Assembly (NCBI RefSeq): GCF_008274215.1
Contig: NZ_VTPS01000016.1
Coordinates: 1-61,774, forward strand
DNA length: 61,774 nt
Direction: 5' to 3'
Source of the DNA: Calorimonas adulescens
GTDB lineage: Bacteria > Bacillota > Thermoanaerobacteria > Thermoanaerobacterales > UBA4877
A program made the translations under genes and the position numbers. The first letter of the stretch is position 1. Each line of letters begins with the position of its first letter. Below, in pieces: positions 13,617-24,508 of this stretch. The notes below the pieces were generated by a model, which saw only the letters and a list, made by a program, of their open reading frames with translations, made no database searches and was not told the origin of the DNA.

Positions 13617-15320
13617 TCAAAATAATTTTATTATATCTTCCATGTCCATGCAGTTTATAACGTCCTGTGGCTCAAGCCATCCCTTCCTAGCTATACCCAC
13701 ACCATATTTAACATCCTTAAGCCCTTCAATGTTATGGGCGTCGGGTCCTATGGCAAACCGTACACCTTTTTCCTTTGCAATCTTTAACATTCTCCAGTCC
13801 ATATCCAACCTATACGGGTTAGCATTTATCTCTATTATCTTATTGTTTCTTGCTGCTTCATCAATGACTCTCTTTATATCCAGTTTATATCCTTCTCGTG
13901 ATAAAAGCAATCTTCCAGTGGGATGACCCAGTATTGTCAAATATGGATTCTGGAGTGCTTTTACTATCCTCTCTGTCATATTATACTCTGATAATCCAAA
14001 ATTTGAATGGACAGAGCCAATAATAAAATCGAACCTTTTGAGCAGTTCTTCAGGGTAATCTAAGCTCCCATCAATCAGTATATCTGATTCTATGCCCTTT
14101 AATATTTTCACACCACCAATCATCTCATTTAAATGGTCTATTTCATCCCATTGTCTCAGCAGGTCCTCCTCTTTTAGGCCGCCAGCATAGAAGGCAGATT
14201 GACTGTGGTCAGTAATTCCAATATATTCATAGCCCAGTTCCTTTGCCTTATATGCGATCTCTTCGATAGTCGCCTTTCCATCACTGTATATAGTATGGAC
14301 GTGAAAAATTCCCTTAATATCCTTATCAGATATCAGATATGGCAACGAATGATTAGCAGCAGCCTCAATCTCACCCATATCCTCCCTGAGCTCCGGAGGT
14401 ATAAAATCCAGGCCCAGCATTTTATATAGCTCTACCTCATCTTTTACCTGGATATTTTCTTCACCTCGGAAAAGGCCATACTCATTCATTTTAAGCCCCA
14501 TTTCCTTGGACCTATGCCTCATGGCAACATTATGTTCCTTGCTACCTGTAAAATACTGTAGTGCATAGGGATATTCCTCGGGTCCTATAACCCTCAGATC
14601 AACCTGAATACCATAGCGTGTATATATGCTGCTCTTTGTTTCGCCGGCAGCTATAGTTTCCCTAACATAAGGACCATTTAAAAAAATATCCATAACCTCT
14701 TGCGGTTTGCTGGAAGACACAAGTATATCAACATCCCTTATTATCTCCCTTTTTCTTCTCAGGCTCCCTGCTACCTCAATGTTTATTATGTCCTTACATG
14801 ATTTTAAATAAGATAATATCTCCTCGGCCTGGCCATAAGCCTCTGAATAGAGATACTTACCTTGATATTTCTTATACTGCATTATCCCATCTAAAAATTT
14901 TTTCTGCGTCTTTTCTCCAAAACCGGGAAGCTCTATCAGACGATTCTCAATACATGCATACTCCAGCTCCCCTATGTTCTTTATGCCAAGCTGTCTATAA
15001 AGCACACCAATCTTTTTGGGCCCAATACCCGGAACATTCATAATTTCCAGTAAACTCTCCGGAAGCTCTGCCTTTAAACTCTCATAGTACTCTATCCTGC
15101 CTGTAGTATAATACTCAATAATCTTTTTATTGAGGGCATCACCTATACCTTTTAAATCCTTCAGCCTGTCTTCTCTTATCAAAGATTCAATATCCTCATC
15201 AAGATTTTCCAGCGTTCGCGCTGCATTATAATATGCCTTTGATTTAAAAGGGTTCTCTCCTTTTATTTCCAGAAGGACACCTATCTTGTTCAAAATCTCT
15301 ATCAACTGATTTTTGTCCAT
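13617..15320 (-). CDS. polX: DNA polymerase/3'-5' exonuclease PolX
   Basis: Family X DNA polymerase with a C-terminal PHP nuclease, 567 aa, the usual length of bacterial PolX. It fills short gaps in base excision repair. Residues 1-310 form the polymerase: helix-hairpin-helix motifs at VPGIGPKKIGVL and LPGFGEKTQKKF, the nucleotidyltransferase AGSLRRKREIIRDVDIL with Asp196 and Asp198, and Asp241. The PHP domain (about 335-567) shows FHVHTIYSDG (His340, His342, Asp347) and GITDHS (Asp371, His372). It lies directly upstream, with an 18-base gap, of the alcohol dehydrogenase and downstream of a DNA glycosylase. Confidence 0.94.
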   Translation of the reverse strand: MDKNQLIEILNKIGVLLEIKGENPFKSKAYYNAARTLENLDEDIESLIREDRLKDLKGIGDALNKKIIEYYTTGRIEYYESLKAELPESLLEIMNVPGIGPKKIGVLYRQLGIKNIGELEYACIENRLIELPGFGEKTQKKFLDGIMQYKKYQGKYLYSEAYGQAEEILSYLKSCKDIINIEVAGSLRRKREIIRDVDILVSSSKPQEVMDIFLNGPYVRETIAAGETKSSIYTRYGIQVDLRVIGPEEYPYALQYFTGSKEHNVAMRHRSKEMGLKMNEYGLFRGEENIQVKDEVELYKMLGLDFIPPELREDMGEIEAAANHSLPYLISDKDIKGIFHVHTIYSDGKATIEEIAYKAKELGYEYIGITDHSQSAFYAGGLKEEDLLRQWDEIDHLNEMIGGVKILKGIESDILIDGSLDYPEELLKRFDFIIGSVHSNFGLSEYNMTERIVKALQNPYLTILGHPTGRLLLSREGYKLDIKRVIDEAARNNKIIEINANPYRLDMDWRMLKIAKEKGVRFAIGPDAHNIEGLKDVKYGVGIARKGWLEPQDVINCMDMEDIIKLF

Positions 15321-16138: not shown

Positions 16139-16167
16139 TTGAAATCATTTTAGCAATATTATATAAT
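16139..16167 (+). promoter_or_regulatory. Sigma-A type promoter of the hydrogenase-sensor operon
   Basis: TTGAAA (16139-16144), a 17-base spacer and a perfect TATAAT (16162-16167) lie 33 bases before the first gene of the operon. Spacing and hexamers fit the housekeeping sigma consensus well. Confidence 0.75.
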
Positions 16168-16199
16168 TAGTATAGTTATTTTTTTAACAGGAGGCGCCT

Positions 16200-16547
16200 A
16201 TGAAACTATCACAAATAATCACTCTTTTAGATGCAAAACCGTTGAATGAGTTTGACCCTGATATTGAAATTATGACCGCTTGCGGGGCTGACCTTTTAAG
16301 TGATGTGCTTGCAGCCAAGTATGACAAAGCTCTTCTCCTTACTGGCCTTACAAATATACAAGTAATAAGGACCGCAGAAATAAGTGACATCAAGGCAGTG
16401 GTTTTTGTTCGCGGCAAAAAGCCCGGCAATGACATCATATCTCTTGCTTCGCAGTTATCCATACCAGTCATGACTACATCTTACTCAATGTTTGCATCCT
16501 GCGGTATACTATATAAAAATGGGCTTAATCCGGGGGACTCTCTATGA
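16200..16547 (+). CDS. DRTGG-domain protein, first copy
   Basis: Small cytoplasmic protein of 115 aa resembling the DRTGG domain, a putative ligand-binding fold found in CBS- and phosphotransacetylase-associated proteins. Visible blocks are CGADLLSDVLA and ALLLTGLTNIQVIRTA, then VVFVRGKKPG. AGGAGG is seven bases before the ATG. It opens the operon that continues with an anti-sigma-like kinase and the sensory hydrogenase, overlapping the next gene by four bases (ATGA). A second, diverged copy lies at 18272. In Clostridia such proteins recur beside sensory [FeFe] hydrogenases; the ligand is not known. Confidence 0.75.
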   Translation: MKLSQIITLLDAKPLNEFDPDIEIMTACGADLLSDVLAAKYDKALLLTGLTNIQVIRTAEISDIKAVVFVRGKKPGNDIISLASQLSIPVMTTSYSMFASCGILYKNGLNPGDSL

Positions 16548-16969
16548 GTGAACCATACAAATTAAGCTTCGAGGTTAAAGCAATGGATTTTTCAACAGCT
16601 GGTGAAGCATCAAGCACAATAAAAAGCATTCTGATGCGCCTTGGACTGCCTCCTTTGGCAATCAAAAGAGCTGCCATATGCAGCTATGAAAGTGAAATGA
16701 ACATGGTAATACATTCCTATGGCGGCACATTAAGTGTATGCATAGACAACTCCCAAATAATCATTACCGCCGCAGACACTGGCCCGGGTATCCCAGATAT
16801 AGAAAAAGCTATGGAGGAAGGGTTTTCCACTGCACCAGAAGAGGTCAAAGAGATGGGGTTCGGAGGCGGGATGGGACTCCCTAATATCAAGGCCAATGCT
16901 GATGTATTAGAAATTACTTCCTCCAGCACCGGCACCAAAGTAACAATAAAAATATTCTTAGGAGGGTAA
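16544..16969 (+). CDS. Anti-sigma-factor-like GHKL ATPase (RsbW type)
   Basis: GHKL-fold ATPase of 141 aa. The N-box is in YESEMNMVIHSYGG, the G1 box is ADTGPGIPD, and GFGGGMGLPNIKANAD is the G2 region. This is the layout of serine-protein kinase/anti-sigma factors such as RsbW and SpoIIAB, which bind a sigma factor or phosphorylate an antagonist. No sigma factor or anti-anti-sigma partner is encoded beside it. The start overlaps the DRTGG stop, and the hydrogenase-like gene follows after two bases with GGAGGG as ribosome site. It probably relays the state of that sensor. Confidence 0.82.
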   Translation: MSEPYKLSFEVKAMDFSTAGEASSTIKSILMRLGLPPLAIKRAAICSYESEMNMVIHSYGGTLSVCIDNSQIIITAADTGPGIPDIEKAMEEGFSTAPEEVKEMGFGGGMGLPNIKANADVLEITSSSTGTKVTIKIFLGG

Positions 16970-16971
16970 TT

Positions 16972-18285
16972 ATGACACTCCATTCCATAGTACTTAATGA
17001 AGAAAAATGCAAGGGTTGTACCAACTGTATAAAGCGTTGTCCAACAGAAGCAATAAGGGTTAGAAACGGCAAAGCCAGAATTATAGAGAACCGTTGCATT
17101 GATTGCGGCGAATGTATAAGAATATGCCCTAACCACGCAAAAGAAGCACTTATGACTAACATTGATGACATTTATGGATATAAATACAAGGTGGCATTAC
17201 CTGCCCCGTCTTTATACGGTCAATTTAAAGAACCCCCAGAATCTATACTGGGTGCATTAAAAAATATTGGTTTTGATTATATACTGGAGGTGGCATATGC
17301 AGCAGAAATCACTTCTTATTGTATAAGTAAATATCTTAAAGAAAACAATATAAAAAGACCAGCAATTTCTTCATCATGTCCATCTCTCGTAAGGCTGATT
17401 ATGTTAGAGTTTCCAGGTCTTATTGCAAATATCATAAGAGTCGAATCCCCCATGGAAATAGCTGCACGAATAGTAAAAAGGAATTTAAGCAAAGAACTTG
17501 CCGTAAATGAAAACGAAATTGGTGTATTCTTTATTTCCCCATGTGCCGCAAAGATGACGGCAGTAAAAAATCCTATAGGTACAAAAAAATCATATGTAGA
17601 TGGAGTTATTTCCATAAAGGATATCGCACCAAAAATATTAAAACACAGTAAGGATATAAAAGTTGAACTTACCTCATCATCATTAGGCATAGGCTGGGCG
17701 ATAAGTGGAGGAGAGAGCAGGTCTGCCAAAATTGAAAATGCTCTTTATGTTGACGGCATACACAATTGTATACAGGTTTTAAGGGAAATCGAACGTGGTA
17801 AGTTAAATGATATTGAATTTTTTGAGGGCCTGGCATGCCCTGGCGGCTGCATAGGTGGTCCTCTCACTATTGAAAACCTTTATGTAGCTAAGAATCGCAT
17901 AAAAAAGATTATGGACTCACTCCCCTCATCACCAAAACCGTTTGATACTGCCGATGTTAACAATCTTGATTCATACATGATGGACGAGGAGATATATTCC
18001 ACATCAGGGTTAACACTGGACAAAGACCTAAACACTGCTATAAAAAAGTTAACCCTAATAGATAAGATCGAGCCAACTCTTCCAGGGCTTGACTGTGGTG
18101 CCTGCGGCGCCCCTACCTGCAAGGCACTGGCTGAGGATATAGCCATGGGCTGGGCCAGTGAAATGGACTGTATATTTATCCTTAAAAATAAGATATCCTC
18201 TCTCGCAAAAGAGGTAGCCGACATATCCTCAAAACTGCCTCCAACTATACAATATGAAGGGAGAAATAAAAATGAAGGTAAATGA
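16972..18285 (+). CDS. Sensory-type [FeFe] hydrogenase H-cluster protein
   Basis: H-cluster protein of 437 aa. Order: two [4Fe-4S] ferredoxin motifs (Cys13/16/19/23 and Cys42/45/48/52), a shortened H-cluster domain (about 70-315) and a C-terminal [4Fe-4S] domain (Cys375/378/383/400, GLDCGACGAPTC). H-cluster motifs are L1 SSSCPSLV (Cys136), L2 SPCAAK (Cys191) and L3 ACPGGCIGG (Cys289, Cys293). The first Cys of the canonical TSCCP, the proton relay of catalytic enzymes, is Ser here, as expected of slow, sensory-type members. No PAS domain is present. The neighbours (RsbW-like, DRTGG, PHP) support signalling rather than bulk H2 turnover. The end overlaps the next gene by 14 bases. Confidence 0.85.
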   Translation: MTLHSIVLNEEKCKGCTNCIKRCPTEAIRVRNGKARIIENRCIDCGECIRICPNHAKEALMTNIDDIYGYKYKVALPAPSLYGQFKEPPESILGALKNIGFDYILEVAYAAEITSYCISKYLKENNIKRPAISSSCPSLVRLIMLEFPGLIANIIRVESPMEIAARIVKRNLSKELAVNENEIGVFFISPCAAKMTAVKNPIGTKKSYVDGVISIKDIAPKILKHSKDIKVELTSSSLGIGWAISGGESRSAKIENALYVDGIHNCIQVLREIERGKLNDIEFFEGLACPGGCIGGPLTIENLYVAKNRIKKIMDSLPSSPKPFDTADVNNLDSYMMDEEIYSTSGLTLDKDLNTAIKKLTLIDKIEPTLPGLDCGACGAPTCKALAEDIAMGWASEMDCIFILKNKISSLAKEVADISSKLPPTIQYEGRNKNEGK

Positions 18286-18604
18286 GATAATAGACAGACT
18301 GAATTTAAAATTATTGAGCGGTACAAATGGTCTTAGCAAAGAGGTAAACGATGTATATATATGTGACCTGTTAAGCTACGTCATGTCCCATGCCAGTGAA
18401 AATTCACTCTGGATCACAGTGCAGACACATATAAACATTGTAGCCGTAGCAGAACTTGTAGGCATATCATGTATAGTTATACCAGAAAATATCAACGTAG
18501 ACAGTGATACCCTTGAAAGGGCTGAAAGGGAGTCTATACCTATAGTTTCTACATCCTTAACCTCTTATCATATCGCATGCAGGCTAAAGGAACTTGGTAT
18601 ATGA
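18272..18604 (+). CDS. DRTGG-domain protein, second copy
   Basis: Cytoplasmic protein of 110 aa, a diverged paralogue of the one at 16200 (compare MKVNEIIDRLNLKLLSG with MKLSQIITLLDAKPLNE). It ends in SIPIVSTSLTSYHIACRL, matching SIPVMTTSYSMFASCGIL of the first copy. The ATG at 18272 has AAGGGAG eight bases upstream; an in-frame ATG at 18254 is within that site's reach and is less likely. Both ends overlap neighbours: 14 bases with the hydrogenase-like gene and four with the PHP gene. The ligand of the domain is unknown. Confidence 0.78.
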   Translation: MKVNEIIDRLNLKLLSGTNGLSKEVNDVYICDLLSYVMSHASENSLWITVQTHINIVAVAELVGISCIVIPENINVDSDTLERAERESIPIVSTSLTSYHIACRLKELGI

Positions 18605-19302
18605 GACTTTACTATGACCTTCATATTCACACTGCCCTCTCGCCCTGTGCTGATAATACCATGACCCCCAATAACATAATAAACATGGCTTGCTTAAAGG
18701 GCCTTAACGTGATAGCAATAACTGACCACAACAGTGTACTCAATTTGCCACCTTTTTTTGAAATTAATCCAGCCGGCATTATGATAATTCCAGGTGTTGA
18801 GGTTCAATCCAGGGAAGAGGTACATGTACTGTGTTACTTTAAGGACCTGGATAGGGCAATGCATTTTGGCATGAGGTTAGAGGAACGTCTTCCAGATATA
18901 TCATGTTCTCCATTTTTTGGTGAACAACTTATCATTGATAAGCATGACAATATAATACGCAATTATAGCAAACTCCTTTTAGGATCTGTTGACCTTTCAC
19001 TCCATGAAGTCTATAAGTTGGCCAGATATTATGAAGGCGCAGTGGTGCCTGCACATGTTGACAGACCTCACTTCAGCATAATTGCAAACCTTGGATTTGT
19101 CCCAGATGATATTCATTTTAAATCTGTAGAATTAAGTCAACCTGAAAATTTACTTGAATATAAAAAACTTTTCCCTGAAAACACATTGTTTTTATTTTCA
19201 TCAGATGCTCATTTCCTGGGAGACATAAATGAAAAAACTGCATACTTTGATATCAAATATTCAACTATAGACTATATTATTGATTATTTATTGTCATCAT
19301 AA
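18601..19302 (+). CDS. PHP-domain metal-dependent phosphoesterase
   Basis: Trp-dependent-RNase-A/TrpH-type PHP phosphoesterase, 233 aa. DLHIHTALSPC (His8, His10) and AITDHNS (Asp42, His43) are metal ligands, and VVPAHVDRPHFS and FLFSSDAHFLG complete the PHP motifs. The start ATG overlaps the DRTGG stop (ATGA). In many Clostridia a protein of this type sits between sensory hydrogenase genes and hydCBA. It could hydrolyse a nucleotide or phosphoprotein signal, but its substrate is not known. A 186-base gap with its own promoter separates it from hydC. Confidence 0.85.
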   Translation: MRLYYDLHIHTALSPCADNTMTPNNIINMACLKGLNVIAITDHNSVLNLPPFFEINPAGIMIIPGVEVQSREEVHVLCYFKDLDRAMHFGMRLEERLPDISCSPFFGEQLIIDKHDNIIRNYSKLLLGSVDLSLHEVYKLARYYEGAVVPAHVDRPHFSIIANLGFVPDDIHFKSVELSQPENLLEYKKLFPENTLFLFSSDAHFLGDINEKTAYFDIKYSTIDYIIDYLLSS

Positions 19303-19425
19303 AAGGCCTATATTATACAGGTAGCTCAATTTTATGCAATGGAGCTTTGCCATCTATATTGCCTGACTTATATCTCAACATACGATATTGAAGGATCTTT
19401 ATTATAAAAATTTTTATTAAATATG

Positions 19426-19454
19426 TTAAAATATAAACTAATTTATGTTATAAT
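19426..19454 (+). promoter_or_regulatory. Internal promoter before hydC
   Basis: TTAAAA (19426-19431), a 17-base spacer and a perfect TATAAT (19449-19454) lie 34 bases before the hydC start. The -35 box is a 4 of 6 match. This would allow hydCBA to be expressed apart from the upstream sensor genes. Confidence 0.6.
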
Positions 19455-19488
19455 GTTATCAAATGAAATGTTAGGAGGTATCGATGTA

Positions 19489-19974
19489 ATGACCACTCTT
19501 TTAGAGGATACAAAGGAGAAAGAAAAGTTCAAGAGATTGCATAATGTCATTGATGCTTATAAAGATAAACCTGGTGCATTAATACCTGTTATGAATGAGG
19601 CTCAGGAGATATTTGGCTATTTGCCATTTGAGGTACAAAAGGAGATATCAGAAGGATTAAATGTTCCATTAACAGAGGTGTATGGAATAGCTACTTTCTA
19701 TTCTCGTTTCACACTGCATCCCTCTGGAAAATACCGTATTGGTGTATGTCTTGGAACAGCATGTTATGTTAAGGGTTCGGCGCTAATACTTGATAAAATA
19801 AAAGAAAAACTTGGCATTGACGTCAATGAGACTACCCCTGACGGAAAGTTTTCTATCGACTCTACAAGATGTCTTGGCTGTTGCGGCTTGTCTCCTGTCA
19901 TGATGATAAATAATGAGGTTTATGGCAAGCTATCACCAGATAGTGTAGACAAAATACTTGAAAAATACAAATAA
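19489..19974 (+). CDS. hydC: NADH-linked [FeFe] hydrogenase, subunit C (NuoE-like)
   Basis: NuoE/24-kDa-type thioredoxin-fold subunit of 161 aa carrying a [2Fe-2S] cluster. The ligands are C-x4-C (Cys87, Cys92 in GVCLGTACYV) and C-x3-C (Cys128, Cys132 in CLGCCG). It is part of the cytoplasmic HydABC complex, which in relatives makes H2 from NADH together with reduced ferredoxin by electron confurcation. The frame is open from further upstream, but AGGAGGT nine bases before the ATG at 19489 fixes the start. The next gene starts two bases after its stop. Confidence 0.92.
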   Translation: MTTLLEDTKEKEKFKRLHNVIDAYKDKPGALIPVMNEAQEIFGYLPFEVQKEISEGLNVPLTEVYGIATFYSRFTLHPSGKYRIGVCLGTACYVKGSALILDKIKEKLGIDVNETTPDGKFSIDSTRCLGCCGLSPVMMINNEVYGKLSPDSVDKILEKYK

Positions 19975-19975
19975 A

Positions 19976-20893
19976 ATGAGAGACATTTCTTTGCACCTAT
20001 TGGATATAGTCCAGAACTCAGTTGAAGCCCGTGCAACATTGATAATAGTAAAATTAATCATCGCCCCATCAAAGAAAAGGTTTTATATGGTGGTTCGCGA
20101 CAATGGATGTGGTATAGAACATAGCAGGCTTGAAAATCTTACTGATCCATTTTATACCAGCAGGAATACCCGCAATGTAGGTATGGGCCTTTCCCTTTTA
20201 AATGCCTCAGTTAAAAGAAGCTTTGGAAAATTAAGGCTGTATTCTGCAAAATCACGTGGAACTATCGTAACGGCATCATTTAGTTTCAAAAGCATAGACC
20301 TGCCACCTCTCGGAGATATAAGAGCAACCATCTTATCGTTGATAACATTAAATCCACACATTGACTTTAAAATTATTTTGAAATCAAAAACTTGTTCTTA
20401 CACATTGGACACCAGATACATTAAAGAAATACTCCAGAATGTGGAAATAAATAATCCGATAGTTATCGACTTCTTAAGGCAAAAACTTGAAACTGATCTT
20501 AAGAATTTTGAGGAGGAATATAAAATGATGACCCTTGAAGAACTGGAAAGGATTAGAGAAGAGGCCCTTGAAAGAGTCCAGCTTCGTAAGGAGAAAACAG
20601 GCACAAGGATCGTGGTTGGCATGGCCACTTGCGGCATTTCAGCCGGAGCCAGACCTGTTTTGGAAGCAATTATGGATGAGGTATCAAAAAGGGGACTTAC
20701 AGATGTCATAGTAGCTCAGACAGGGTGTATAGGACTTTGTAAATACGAACCAATAGTTGAAGTAACCAGACCAGGCGAAAATAAGGTTACCTATATCAAG
20801 ATGGACCCTGAAAAAGCTAGGAAGATGATAGCTGAGCATATTGTCAATGGCCACGCAATAAAAGAGTGGACCATAGAAAGTATACAACTTTAA
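19976..20893 (+). CDS. GHKL ATPase fused in frame to a ferredoxin-like domain
   Basis: A single open frame of 305 codons joins two proteins that are normally separate in clostridial hydrogenase operons. Residues 1-183 are a GHKL ATPase: N-box DIVQNSVEA, G1 RDNGCGIE, G2 NVGMGLSLL. Residues 184-305 are the thioredoxin-like [2Fe-2S] protein described as the next feature. There is no stop codon between them, and AGGAGG plus ATGATG sits at the junction. The ATG at 19976 has no visible Shine-Dalgarno and begins one base after the hydC stop, so translation is probably coupled. Either a fusion protein, the ferredoxin alone, or both may be made. The ATPase probably regulates or assembles the hydrogenase; its role is unproven. 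Confidence 0.75.
   Translation: MRDISLHLLDIVQNSVEARATLIIVKLIIAPSKKRFYMVVRDNGCGIEHSRLENLTDPFYTSRNTRNVGMGLSLLNASVKRSFGKLRLYSAKSRGTIVTASFSFKSIDLPPLGDIRATILSLITLNPHIDFKIILKSKTCSYTLDTRYIKEILQNVEINNPIVIDFLRQKLETDLKNFEEEYKMMTLEELERIREEALERVQLRKEKTGTRIVVGMATCGISAGARPVLEAIMDEVSKRGLTDVIVAQTGCIGLCKYEPIVEVTRPGENKVTYIKMDPEKARKMIAEHIVNGHAIKEWTIESIQL
20525..20893 (+). CDS. (2Fe-2S) ferredoxin-like protein, internal start
   Basis: Thioredoxin-fold ferredoxin-like protein of 122 aa, beginning MMTLEELERIREEAL. AGGAGG at 20511-20516 is eight bases before this ATG, an ideal site, so the protein is probably made on its own. Only three family cysteines are visible: Cys36 in GMATCGISAGAR, and two in QTGCIGLC. One of the usual four ligands is therefore not Cys. 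Relatives sit before hydB in most clostridial HydABC operons and are thought to pass electrons, although a direct role is not shown. It shares its frame with the upstream GHKL ATPase, and hydB follows after 12 bases. Confidence 0.75.
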   Translation: MMTLEELERIREEALERVQLRKEKTGTRIVVGMATCGISAGARPVLEAIMDEVSKRGLTDVIVAQTGCIGLCKYEPIVEVTRPGENKVTYIKMDPEKARKMIAEHIVNGHAIKEWTIESIQL

Positions 20894-20905
20894 GGAGGAT
20901 TGAAT

Positions 20906-22708
20906 ATGCCTTTTTATAGATCTCATGTGCTTATATGTGCAGGAACTGGGTGTACATCAAATAATTCAGATGCAGTTGCAGAAAAATTTAAGGAAGAACT
21001 TCAAAAACACGGTCTTGAAAATGAGATACAGATCGTAAGAACCGGATGCTTTGGACTTTGTGAGCTTGGCCCTGTAGTAATAGTATACCCCGAAGGAGTC
21101 TTTTATAACAGGGTAAAACCGGAGCATGTGCCCGAACTGGTTGAAGAGCATCTCTTAAAGGGAAGAATAGTTAAAAAATATGTATACGGTGAAGCAATTG
21201 AGGAAAAGGGTGAATTTTTACCTCTTGAAGAAACCAGCTTCTTTAAAAACCAGCACCGCATTGCACTTAGAAATTGTGGTGTCATAAACCCTGAGGATAT
21301 AGAAGAATATATTGCGATGGATGGCTACAAAGCATTGGGGAAAGTTCTCACTGAAATGACACCGCAGGAGGTCATCGATATTGTAAAAAAGTCCGGACTA
21401 AGAGGCCGCGGAGGCGCAGGCTTTCCAACAGGCCTGAAATGGCAATTTACTCATGATGCCAAAGGAACTCAAAAATATGTTGTATGCAATGCTGACGAAG
21501 GAGACCCAGGAGCTTTTATGGATCGAAGTGTACTTGAAGGTGACCCCCATAGCGTAATCGAAGCCATGACAATAGCAGGATATGCTGTAGGAGCTAACTA
21601 TGGATATATATATGTCCGTGCTGAATATCCTATGGCAGTTAAAAGACTAACCATAGCAATTGGCCAGGCCAGGCGTTATGGTCTTCTTGGCAAAAACATA
21701 TTTGGTACAGGATTTGACTTTGACATAGAAATAAGGCTTGGAGCAGGAGCTTTTGTATGCGGCGAGGAGACCGCCCTCATGAACTCTGTAATGGGCCGCA
21801 GAGGTGAACCCAGGCCAAGACCTCCATTCCCTGCAAACAGTGGTGTATGGAACTCTCCCACCCTGCTCAACAACGTAGAGACATATGCAAATATACCACC
21901 CATAATATTAAATGGACCTGAGTGGTTTAGCTCCATTGGCACTGAAAAGTCAAAAGGCACCAAGGTCTTTGCCCTCGGTGGCAAAATTAACAACACAGGA
22001 CTTGTGGAAGTTCCTATGGGTACTACCCTCAGAGAAATAATATACGAAATTGGTGGCGGCATACCAAATGGTAAAGAATTCAAGGCTGTGCAGACCGGTG
22101 GCCCATCAGGCGGTTGTATTACAAAAGATAACTTGGACACACCAATAGACTATGATTCACTGATAAATATCGGTACAATGATGGGTTCCGGCGGCATGAT
22201 AGTAATGGATGAAGACAATTGCATGGTGGATATAGCCAAGTTTTTCTTAGAGTTTACGGTTGATGAGTCATGTGGGAAATGCCCGCCGTGTCGCATAGGT
22301 ATGAAACGGATGCTTGAAATATTAAATAAGATAACTTCAGGAAATGGTGAGGAAGAGGATATTGAAAAATTAGAAGAACTTGGAAATTTTATAAAATCAT
22401 CAGCCCTTTGTGGCCTTGGCCAGACAGCACCCAACCCTGTTCTCTCCACTTTAAGATACTTCAGAGACGAATACGAAGCCCATATAAGAGATAAAAAATG
22501 CCCTGCAGGTGTATGCCAGGCACTCATTCAGTACTACGTCGACAGTGAAAAATGCCATGGATGTGCAAGACCGCTGTGTGTTAAGAATTGTCCTACAGGA
22601 GCAATATCAGGCGTACCAAAGTCACCCTATTCTATCAATCAAGAGATATGTACTAAATGTGGCGCTTGCATGGAAAGCTGCCCCTTTAACGCAATCTATA
22701 AGAAATAA
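20906..22708 (+). CDS. hydB: NADH-linked [FeFe] hydrogenase, subunit B (NuoF-like)
   Basis: Flavin and NADH-binding subunit, 600 aa. An N-terminal thioredoxin-like [2Fe-2S] domain (ICAGTGCTS, RTGCFGLCE) is followed by the NuoF core. GLRGRGGAGFPTGLKWQF and CNADEGDPGAFMDR form the NADH/FMN site, and ESCGKCPPCRIG with SALCGLG holds a [4Fe-4S] cluster. The C-terminus adds a two-[4Fe-4S] ferredoxin domain (CHGCARPLCVKNCPTGAI and CTKCGACMESCPFNAI). This domain order is that of HydB of electron-confurcating hydrogenases. ATG 20906 has AAGGAGG seven bases upstream. It lies between the ferredoxin-like gene and hydA. Confidence 0.95.
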   Translation: MPFYRSHVLICAGTGCTSNNSDAVAEKFKEELQKHGLENEIQIVRTGCFGLCELGPVVIVYPEGVFYNRVKPEHVPELVEEHLLKGRIVKKYVYGEAIEEKGEFLPLEETSFFKNQHRIALRNCGVINPEDIEEYIAMDGYKALGKVLTEMTPQEVIDIVKKSGLRGRGGAGFPTGLKWQFTHDAKGTQKYVVCNADEGDPGAFMDRSVLEGDPHSVIEAMTIAGYAVGANYGYIYVRAEYPMAVKRLTIAIGQARRYGLLGKNIFGTGFDFDIEIRLGAGAFVCGEETALMNSVMGRRGEPRPRPPFPANSGVWNSPTLLNNVETYANIPPIILNGPEWFSSIGTEKSKGTKVFALGGKINNTGLVEVPMGTTLREIIYEIGGGIPNGKEFKAVQTGGPSGGCITKDNLDTPIDYDSLINIGTMMGSGGMIVMDEDNCMVDIAKFFLEFTVDESCGKCPPCRIGMKRMLEILNKITSGNGEEEDIEKLEELGNFIKSSALCGLGQTAPNPVLSTLRYFRDEYEAHIRDKKCPAGVCQALIQYYVDSEKCHGCARPLCVKNCPTGAISGVPKSPYSINQEICTKCGACMESCPFNAIYKK

Positions 22709-22723
22709 CGGGAGGAGATATGA

Positions 22724-24508
22724 ATGGAGATGGTAAAAGTAACAATCGACGGTATAACAAAAGAAGTGCCAAAAGGGTATACTGTACTTGAAGCAGCACA
22801 TTCAATAGGTATTCACATACCAACATTATGTTATTTGAAGGATATAAATCAAATAGGAGCATGCAGGGTATGTCTTGTGGAAATTGAAGGGGCAAAAGGC
22901 CTTCAGGCTTCCTGTGTCTATCCAGTATCTGACGGTATGGTTGTCAGGACCAACAGCCCTAAAGTACGAAAAGCTAGAAAATACAATGTTGAATTAATTC
23001 TATCGGCTCATGACAGAAATTGTCTTACTTGTGTACGCAATAAAAATTGTGAACTTCAGACCTTAGCTGATGAACTTAACATAAATGAGATCAGCTTTGA
23101 TGGCGAGAATATTCACTACCCTATTGATGATTTGTCTCCTTCCATTGTAAGGGATCCTAATAAGTGTGTACTCTGCAGAAGGTGTATCGCTGCCTGCAAT
23201 GAACAGACCGTATATGCTATAGGTATTAACAATAGAGGTTTTAAATCTGTCGTATCTCCTGTTTTTGGCAGAAGTTTGAACGAATCACCCTGTATAAACT
23301 GTGGTCAATGCCTTATATCATGCCCCACAGGTGCTTTGAGAGAAAAATCCAGCATTGAAAAGGTATGGAATGCCTTAAACGACCCTGACACTCATGTAGT
23401 CGTACAGACTGCGCCAGCAGTGAGGGCAGCTCTTGGAGAAGAATTCGGTTATCCCATCGGTACACTGGTAACCGGTAAAATGGCAGCAGCACTTAGAAGA
23501 CTTGGATTTGACAGGATATTTGACACTGATTTTGCAGCCGACCTCACAATTATGGAAGAAGGAAACGAGCTACTCAAAAGATTGAAAAACGGCGGCCCTC
23601 TTCCTCTTATAACCTCTTGCAGCCCTGGATGGGTAAAGTTTTGTGAGGAATACTATCCAGAATTTATTGAAAATCTGTCCAGTTGCAAATCACCTCATAT
23701 GATGCTTGGGGCTATAATAAAGACCTATTATGCGCAAAAAGTCGGTATAGTTCCAGAGAAAATATTCGTTGTTTCCGTAATGCCATGCACAGCCAAAAAA
23801 TATGAGATAGAAAGGCCAGAAATGACCTTTTATGGCATGAAAAACGTGGATGCAGTCATCACAACCAGGGAACTGGCAAGGATGATAAAAGAGGCTAATA
23901 TAAACTTTAATGCCCTTCCAGATGAAGATTTTGATGACCCATTAGGTGAATCCACAGGCGCCGGTGTTATATTTGGAGTCACCGGAGGGGTTATGGAGGC
24001 AGCCCTGAGGACAGTAGCTGATATTGTAGAGGGAAAAGACCTTGATACAATCGACTATAATGAAGTCCGAGGGCTTGATGGGGTCAGAGAGTCTTCTGTA
24101 ACTATTGATGGTATGGAAATAAAGATAGCTATAGCAAACGGAACAGGAAATGCAAGAAAACTTCTTGACAAGGTAAAAGCGGGTGAAGCTTTTTATCACT
24201 TTATTGAAATCATGGGATGCCCTGGCGGATGTATTAACGGCGGTGGCCAACCCATTGTTTCATCCAGGGTTAGGATGGATGTTGATGTAAAAGCACTGCG
24301 TGCCAAAGCAATATACGCTGAGGATGCAGGCAAAACCATAAGAAAATCTCACAAAAATCCGCAAATAATAAAGATATACGAAGAGTTCCTAAAAGAACCA
24401 TTAAGTGAAACGTCTCACCACCTACTTCATACAGAATATGAGTCAAAGGAACTTTATCCCTTTAAAGATACAACAGTTAATAAGAAGGCTGCTACAGCAG
24501 CAAAATAG
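22724..24508 (+). CDS. hydA: NADH-linked [FeFe] hydrogenase, catalytic subunit A
   Basis: Catalytic subunit, 594 aa, with the H-cluster where 2H+ are reduced to H2. From the N-terminus: a [2Fe-2S] domain (CYLKDINQIGACRVCLVE), a His-Cys3 [4Fe-4S] motif (HDRNCLTCVRNKNC), two [4Fe-4S] sets (CVLCRRCIAAC, CINCGQCLISC) and the H-cluster domain. L1 is TSCSPGWV, L2 MPCTAKKYE and L3 GCPGGCINGGGQP. L1 has Ser at the second Cys of the textbook TSCCP. The gene ends at a strong terminator, closing the operon. GGAGGA is seven bases before the ATG. It works with HydB and HydC in the cytoplasm. Confidence 0.95.
   Translation: MEMVKVTIDGITKEVPKGYTVLEAAHSIGIHIPTLCYLKDINQIGACRVCLVEIEGAKGLQASCVYPVSDGMVVRTNSPKVRKARKYNVELILSAHDRNCLTCVRNKNCELQTLADELNINEISFDGENIHYPIDDLSPSIVRDPNKCVLCRRCIAACNEQTVYAIGINNRGFKSVVSPVFGRSLNESPCINCGQCLISCPTGALREKSSIEKVWNALNDPDTHVVVQTAPAVRAALGEEFGYPIGTLVTGKMAAALRRLGFDRIFDTDFAADLTIMEEGNELLKRLKNGGPLPLITSCSPGWVKFCEEYYPEFIENLSSCKSPHMMLGAIIKTYYAQKVGIVPEKIFVVSVMPCTAKKYEIERPEMTFYGMKNVDAVITTRELARMIKEANINFNALPDEDFDDPLGESTGAGVIFGVTGGVMEAALRTVADIVEGKDLDTIDYNEVRGLDGVRESSVTIDGMEIKIAIANGTGNARKLLDKVKAGEAFYHFIEIMGCPGGCINGGGQPIVSSRVRMDVDVKALRAKAIYAEDAGKTIRKSHKNPQIIKIYEEFLKEPLSETSHHLLHTEYESKELYPFKDTTVNKKAATAAK

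Follow-up and report, generated by a model that had tools for sequence, protein, structure and literature searches.

The window analyzed here is the whole stretch of 61,774 nucleotides from Calorimonas adulescens (contig NZ_VTPS01000016.1), and the subject is a run of five tightly packed genes at its positions 16200 to 19302, with the gene of an H-cluster protein, HydS, in the middle. The order is DRTGG1, a SpoIIAB-like ATPase, HydS, DRTGG2, and a PHP phosphoesterase, followed downstream by hydCBA, and the Pfam domains of the five proteins are DRTGG, HATPase_c_2, Fe_hyd_lg_C, DRTGG, and PHP. Judged by comparison with related genomes, the five genes are a real unit (hereafter the module), and HydS is best understood as a replaceable sensor that feeds into the ATPase. 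An earlier note on this DNA had described five overlapping genes behind a near-consensus promoter, and both statements hold: the overlaps of 4, 14, and 4 bases and the 2-base gap are all exact, and the predicted promoter agrees with the consensus at 11 of 12 positions. The module comprises the following features, coding sequences being open reading frames:

16139..16167, + strand: predicted sigma-A-type promoter TTGAAA-17-TATAAT (consensus scan, 11/12 matches)
16173..16190, + strand: weak Rex-like site 5' of DRTGG1 (3 mismatches)
16200..16547, + strand: DRTGG1, 115 amino acids (Pfam below cut-off; invariant D31, S34, T48, G72, G102)
16544..16969, + strand: GHKL ATPase/kinase of the SpoIIAB/RsbW type, 141 amino acids (4-base overlap with DRTGG1)
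16972..18285, + strand: HydS, group D (M2e) [FeFe]-hydrogenase, 437 amino acids (2-base gap after the ATPase)
18272..18604, + strand: DRTGG2, 110 amino acids from ATG 18272 (14-base overlap with HydS; invariant D32, S35, W47, T49)
18601..19302, + strand: PHP phosphoesterase, 233 amino acids from ATG 18601 (4-base overlap with DRTGG2; metal ligands conserved)

Conservation of the five genes

One scan of species genomes yielded 575 relatives; 80 of them were retained together with flanks of up to 10 kb, and synteny was counted over 110 fetched loci. The complete gene order is found in 91 of the 110 loci, mostly from Firmicutes and also from other phyla, and several of the other 19 end at contig edges. 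Of 199 genomes sampled evenly across the phylum, 65 have both HydS and a module-type PHP protein, 4 have PHP only, 3 have HydS only, and 127 have neither, and in 62 of the 65 genomes the HydS–PHP pair lies within 3 kb. Rare co-occurrence of the five genes had been named beforehand as the outcome that would speak against a common function; instead, the genes turned out to occur together commonly (full order in 91/110 loci; HydS with PHP in 65 genomes), and chance or loose clustering is ruled out by the synteny and co-occurrence counts (65 versus 7 for the latter). In loci L007–L036, the gene directly 5' of DRTGG1 often codes for a SPOR-domain protein or an FtsJ-type methyltransferase, with gaps of 10–35 bases.

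A mere co-inheritance of functionally unrelated genes along with the hyd superoperon is, in our view, very improbable. Module and hyd gene distance matrices correlate about equally, as co-inheritance would have it, but these correlations are uninformative, and in about 18 loci the ATPase–HydS pair persists although neither hyd nor Rnf genes were found close to it, which argues against HydS as a mere passenger; moreover, PHP is retained where HydS has relocated, and module genes are lost together in decaying loci. The decaying copies (L167 in genome G073, L168 in G041, and L152 in G208) hold HydS and PHP remnants or DRTGG2 alone next to persisting hyd genes, with broken HydS pieces beside the hyd genes in L152, and they represent natural knock-outs for comparison. 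Since the module decays in L167 and L168 while the hyd genes stay, HydABC can exist without it.

HydS as a group D hydrogenase

By its residues and domain plan, the H-cluster protein of the window falls into group D (M2e) of the [FeFe]-hydrogenases, as does TamHydS of Thermoanaerobacter mathranii; the source genome belongs to the same order as Thermoanaerobacter and holds two [FeFe]-hydrogenase genes only, HydA and HydS. The protein consists of two N-terminal [4Fe-4S] motifs, the H-domain, and a C-terminal RnfB-like four-Cys [4Fe-4S] motif (PF04060, residues 370–402). Several details of the earlier note concerned this protein, namely that it keeps the four H-cluster cysteines, has Ser at the proton-relay position (SSSCPS), lacks a PAS domain, and ends in an RnfB-like [4Fe-4S] domain. 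Indeed, C136, C191, C289, and C293 are invariant in 110 homologues, the Ser is present in the window protein, and Pfam supports both domain statements: the PAS domain that would indicate a group C sensory hydrogenase gave no Pfam match in HydS or the other four module proteins. At the relay position (C299 of group A), 99/110 homologues carry Ala and 11/110, from several lineages, carry Ser; the latter is common to the window, a family relative (L006), Coprothermobacter (L054), Tepidanaerobacter (L056), and three spirochaetes. An alternative proton path (E248, E285, D261, corresponding to E252, E289, D265 of TamHydS) is conserved at 0.95–1.00, and Ser189 (ISPCAAK) and Leu287 (GLACPGGC) replace both active-site Met residues, per the group D pattern.

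According to the papers on TamHydS (PMC8163306, PMC10407848, PMC13104023), that protein shares with HydS the domain plan, the lack of a PAS domain, the proton-path residues, and the C-terminal cluster, and its gene likewise lies upstream of a bifurcating hydrogenase and beside a histidine-kinase-like ATPase; it differs in carrying Ala instead of Ser at the C299 position. In the sections covered, the gene on the far side is called an AraC-family regulator and may correspond to the DRTGG gene, and no five-gene module, CBS alternative, or Rnf association appears there. The reported activity of TamHydS is low, its Km for H2 is relatively low as well, and H2 induces a change in its structure (PMC8163306, PMC13104023). 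As far as these sections go, the label “putatively sensory” for group D is published and the signal output is not, and the authors themselves leave open how such hydrogenases relay an H2 signal.

Group C sensory [FeFe]-hydrogenases (TmHydS, HfsB, R. albus HydS) are slow H-cluster proteins proposed to sense H2, and in this they resemble HydS, which is probably slow too, but they carry a PAS domain, and the hfs operon includes a serine-phosphatase-like partner, whereas the module has neither. In the regulatory [NiFe]-hydrogenase of Ralstonia eutropha, a hydrogenase likewise serves as H2 sensor and signals to a GHKL ATPase (a histidine kinase; cited in PMC3492117), yet it does so with an unrelated metal centre, a PAS histidine kinase, and a response regulator, none of which occurs in the module.

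Exchange of HydS for a CBS pair

Among 153 ATPase loci, 138 have HydS next to the ATPase and no CBS, 10 have a CBS pair on the ATPase and no HydS in the locus, 2 have both, and 3 have neither. The CBS domains were verified by Pfam. The four genomes with PHP and no HydS comprise one contig end (L148) and three loci with the order DRTGG1–CBS/ATPase–DRTGG2–PHP (L145, L146, L147; Pfam E about 1e-30 for CBS), and when 59 genomes of one class were surveyed, CBS-ATPases without HydS turned up again in L206, L207, and L208; in that survey, L165 and L209 have CBS together with HydS, and HydS adjoins every other ATPase locus read. On a tree of the ATPase domain (about 140 residues, modest support), the CBS-ATPases form four groups. 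Because a CBS pair on the same ATPase can replace HydS, the simplest reading is that HydS is a sensory input, and the ATPase is probably the first receiver of its signal. The step from H-cluster protein to kinase-like ATPase, already suggested in the earlier note, thus gains strong comparative support from this replacement in several lineages, and comparison lends good support to the HydS–ATPase link; what happens beyond the ATPase we infer.

Alternatively, HydS could be metabolic and supply or take electrons for an ATP-driven reductase, or serve assembly or repair of HydABC, powered by the ATPase. The ferredoxin-like and RnfB-like clusters of HydS would suit such a role, as would the adjoining electron-bifurcating complexes and the published finding that the class does interconvert H2 (PMC8163306). 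However, HydS is replaceable by a CBS pair, which carries no electrons, the hyd genes outlast the module in L167 and L168, and the activity published for the class is very low, so that we regard this explanation as quite unlikely.

Five genomes with the HydS–ATPase pair elsewhere were searched for PHP, and all five keep it. Three of them (spirochaetes) possess a second module, DRTGG1–CBS/ATPase–DRTGG2–PHP, beside the HydS–ATPase paralogue elsewhere, while in two clostridial genomes (L218, L157), as in the further relatives L155 and L159, PHP resides within DRTGG1–DRTGG2–PHP, mostly with Rex upstream. In most of the five genomes, the relocated pair has receiver, CheW, or response-regulator genes as neighbours. 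An OmpR-type response regulator, a large sensor-kinase-like protein, or a CheW gene adjoins the HydS–ATPase pair in L156, L158, L160, L050, and L085, and such neighbours possibly represent a second output route. Directly 3' of the group D HydS, L085 (11398–13311) and L158 (2534–4447) encode a 637-residue H-cluster-like protein of another class. In L161 and L163 (G045, G191) and L162 (G072), the ATPase and DRTGG1 stand without HydS, CBS, or PHP and with Rex downstream; in L162, multihaem-cytochrome-like and NAD-linked genes follow.

The ATPase, DRTGG, and PHP proteins

The ATPase has an N-box with E49/N53, a G1 box (D78-x-G-P-G), and a G2 box (G107-x-G-x-G), and its catalytic Glu/Asn and glycine boxes, which mark it as a GHKL protein, are invariant among homologues. 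Since these boxes and the catalytic Glu are kept, action as a Ser/Thr kinase is plausible. The nearest solved structures are those of anti-sigma F (SpoIIAB) and RsbW, with which the protein shares the GHKL fold and the catalytic boxes; the NCBIfam spIIAB match, in contrast, reaches 45.6 bits against a cut-off of 135, i. e., far below the threshold of the anti-sigma F family. SpoIIAB and RsbW further differ in having sigma/STAS partners, whereas the window ATPase carries an insertion in the lid region and is accompanied by HydS, CBS, or DRTGG proteins.

DRTGG1 is the sole module protein below its Pfam threshold (21.8 against 25.2 bits), yet it belongs to a clear family. DRTGG1 and DRTGG2 constitute two old orthologous families with zero misplaced sequences on the tree and a mean identity of 23 % between them, and this perfect split rules out recent duplication. 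While the canonical DRTGG motif is altered in both, a D-x-x-S motif is invariant in both families, and its Ser, a candidate phospho-acceptor, is missing in the two canonical DRTGG proteins of the genome, as far as the motif could be matched by eye. Natural DRTGG1–ATPase fusions in L056 and L062 suggest that DRTGG1 contacts the ATPase.

The metal-ligand residues of the PHP protein (H8, H10, D42, H43, E67, H152, D202, H204) are invariant. Its AlphaFold model (predicted local distance difference test score 97.1) has as nearest solved folds EndoQ, BAD_1165, RNase AM, and a phosphoesterase bound to adenosine monophosphate (AMP), which favours a nucleotide or nucleic acid substrate over a protein phosphatase role; the model-based assignment thus leans towards the former. 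Tyrosine-phosphatase-like folds are not among the nearest structures, and this function was discarded. A PolX-like protein, apparently with a PHP domain of its own, is encoded nearby (13617–15320, − strand) and shows no sign of module membership.

These resemblances also bear on a scheme in which PHP degrades an adenine (di)nucleotide sensed by DRTGG and CBS, with the ATPase only gating. PHP does resemble AMP phosphatase, RNase AM, and EndoQ, and CBS and DRTGG co-occur in adenine-nucleotide-regulated pyrophosphatases; these CBS-DRTGG pyrophosphatases and the SpxR-type regulators use both domains together, as is the case here, but the module type has them as separate proteins around an ATPase. 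On the other hand, no ligand is known for DRTGG1 or DRTGG2, the canonical motif is altered in both, and the cluster contains no synthetase. We consider this scheme unlikely.

Output of the module

Downstream of the module, the window continues with the likely target operon:

19423..19462, + strand: two Rex-like sites before hydC (3 mismatches each; overlapping the predicted promoter at 19426–19454)
19426..19454, + strand: predicted hydC promoter TTAAAA-17-TATAAT, extended −10 (consensus scan)
19468..19974, + strand: hydC/NuoE-like subunit, first gene of the likely target operon (open reading frame, domain search)
19958..20893, + strand: second GHKL ATPase (HATP2) fused in frame to a [2Fe-2S] thioredoxin-like domain (open reading frame, Pfam)
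20900..24508, + strand: hydB and hydA, bifurcating-type hydrogenase (open reading frames)

HATP2 and the [2Fe-2S] protein are two separate genes in most relatives. Because a second promoter sits before hydC, this gene need not depend on the promoter at 16139–16167. The Rex-like sites of the window are weak; among relatives, Rex-type sites with at most 2 mismatches precede hydC in 21/57 cases (1.4 % expected from shuffles), and sites with at most 1 mismatch precede DRTGG1 in 5/34, a level not reached in shuffles, with exact sites in L044, L048, and L049. In eight loci, the module precedes Rnf genes, RnfC being confirmed by Pfam. Pfam recognised no DNA-binding domain in the five module proteins, and no sigma-factor or STAS gene was seen beside the module or among the recurrent neighbours of relatives.

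Consequently, an output at the protein level on ferredoxin:NAD complexes is favoured by the lack of a recognised DNA-binding domain, the position of the module in front of Rnf genes, and the Rex sites before hydC, and it seems likelier than a transcriptional one. On the same evidence, H2-dependent transcription of hydCBA, which the earlier note had proposed as readout, ranks below it. A more specific transcriptional model is partner switching, in which the ATPase would be an anti-sigma factor and HydS and the DRTGG proteins would release a sigma factor for the hyd genes. The kinship of the ATPase to SpoIIAB and RsbW and the NCBIfam spIIAB match speak for this model, but the match falls far short of the anti-sigma F cut-off, sigma and STAS genes are absent from the recurrent neighbours, and hydC already has Rex sites in many relatives, which renders it distinctly unlikely. 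For T. tengcongensis, a fourfold drop in NADH-dependent hydrogenase activity at high H2 is reported (cited in PMC3492117), which speaks for the output at the protein level, although this drop may be transcriptional.

Proposed mechanism

Taken together, we lean slightly towards a signalling module that has the SpoIIAB-like ATPase as hub, HydS as input, and the DRTGG and PHP proteins as co-actors, and that tunes HydABC or Rnf. By analogy with TamHydS, HydS would be a slow group D hydrogenase and provide the H2 or redox input, its clusters being reduced by H2 and the resulting change in shape being read by the ATPase. DRTGG1 would bind the ATPase, both DRTGG proteins would be its targets or co-regulators, and PHP would reset the signal or destroy a nucleotide ligand. 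As H2 rises, the output would tune the neighbouring ferredoxin:NAD complex (HydABC here, Rnf in some relatives), most likely at the protein level. The integrity of the module, HydS as an exchangeable ATPase partner, and the DRTGG1–ATPase fusion come from comparison of sequences; we infer that H2 is the ligand in C. adulescens, that the ATPase works as a kinase and the invariant DRTGG Ser as acceptor, and also what PHP acts on and what the output targets.

Several observations weigh against this proposal. PHP is absent from some HydS-bearing loci (L102, L108, L149), CBS and HydS occur together in L165 and L209 and are therefore not strict substitutes, and L161–L163 have neither input. As the lineages are related, locus counts are non-independent and overstate the number of events. 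Moreover, H2 does not reduce the C-terminal cluster in TamHydS (PMC13104023), the closest folds of the PHP model act on nucleic acids or nucleotides and not on proteins, and kinase activity, protein contact, and H2 response are all deduced from sequence. Overall, the earlier interpretation stands in that the genes form a real unit and HydS would act on the ATPase, but not in hydCBA transcription as the likeliest output. The proposals of the earlier note that the DRTGG proteins sense ligands and that PHP receives the signal gained no support here.

The group D class and its ATPase neighbour are known from the literature (PMC8163306), as are the low activity and the position near hydABC, so that “undescribed”, the word of the earlier note for the signal output, applies only in part. 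Work on C. thermocellum mentions upstream kinases and phosphatases in general terms, and the open-access literature covered, which lacks some key papers, yielded no account of a conserved order of the five genes, of two DRTGG families, of a CBS variant, or of an association with Rnf. As a tentative proposal, which we would put at somewhat less than even, the module may constitute an unrecognised pathway of anaerobes, in which the ATPase as hub would take exchangeable inputs (H2 through a group D hydrogenase, or adenylate charge through a CBS pair) and, with two dedicated DRTGG proteins and PHP, would control HydABC or Rnf at the protein level, possibly via a nucleotide messenger.

The exchange of HydS and CBS on one ATPase hints at which protein receives the signal first, and the question raised for TamHydS can now be tested directly. 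Since the module accompanies HydABC as well as Rnf, the exchange between ferredoxin and NAD may be under shared control. Fermenting anaerobes that matter for the gut, for digesters, and for biofuels commonly carry the module; their products are shaped by H2 back-pressure, and the interchange of its inputs suggests how anaerobes may convert H2 pressure into control of electron flow.

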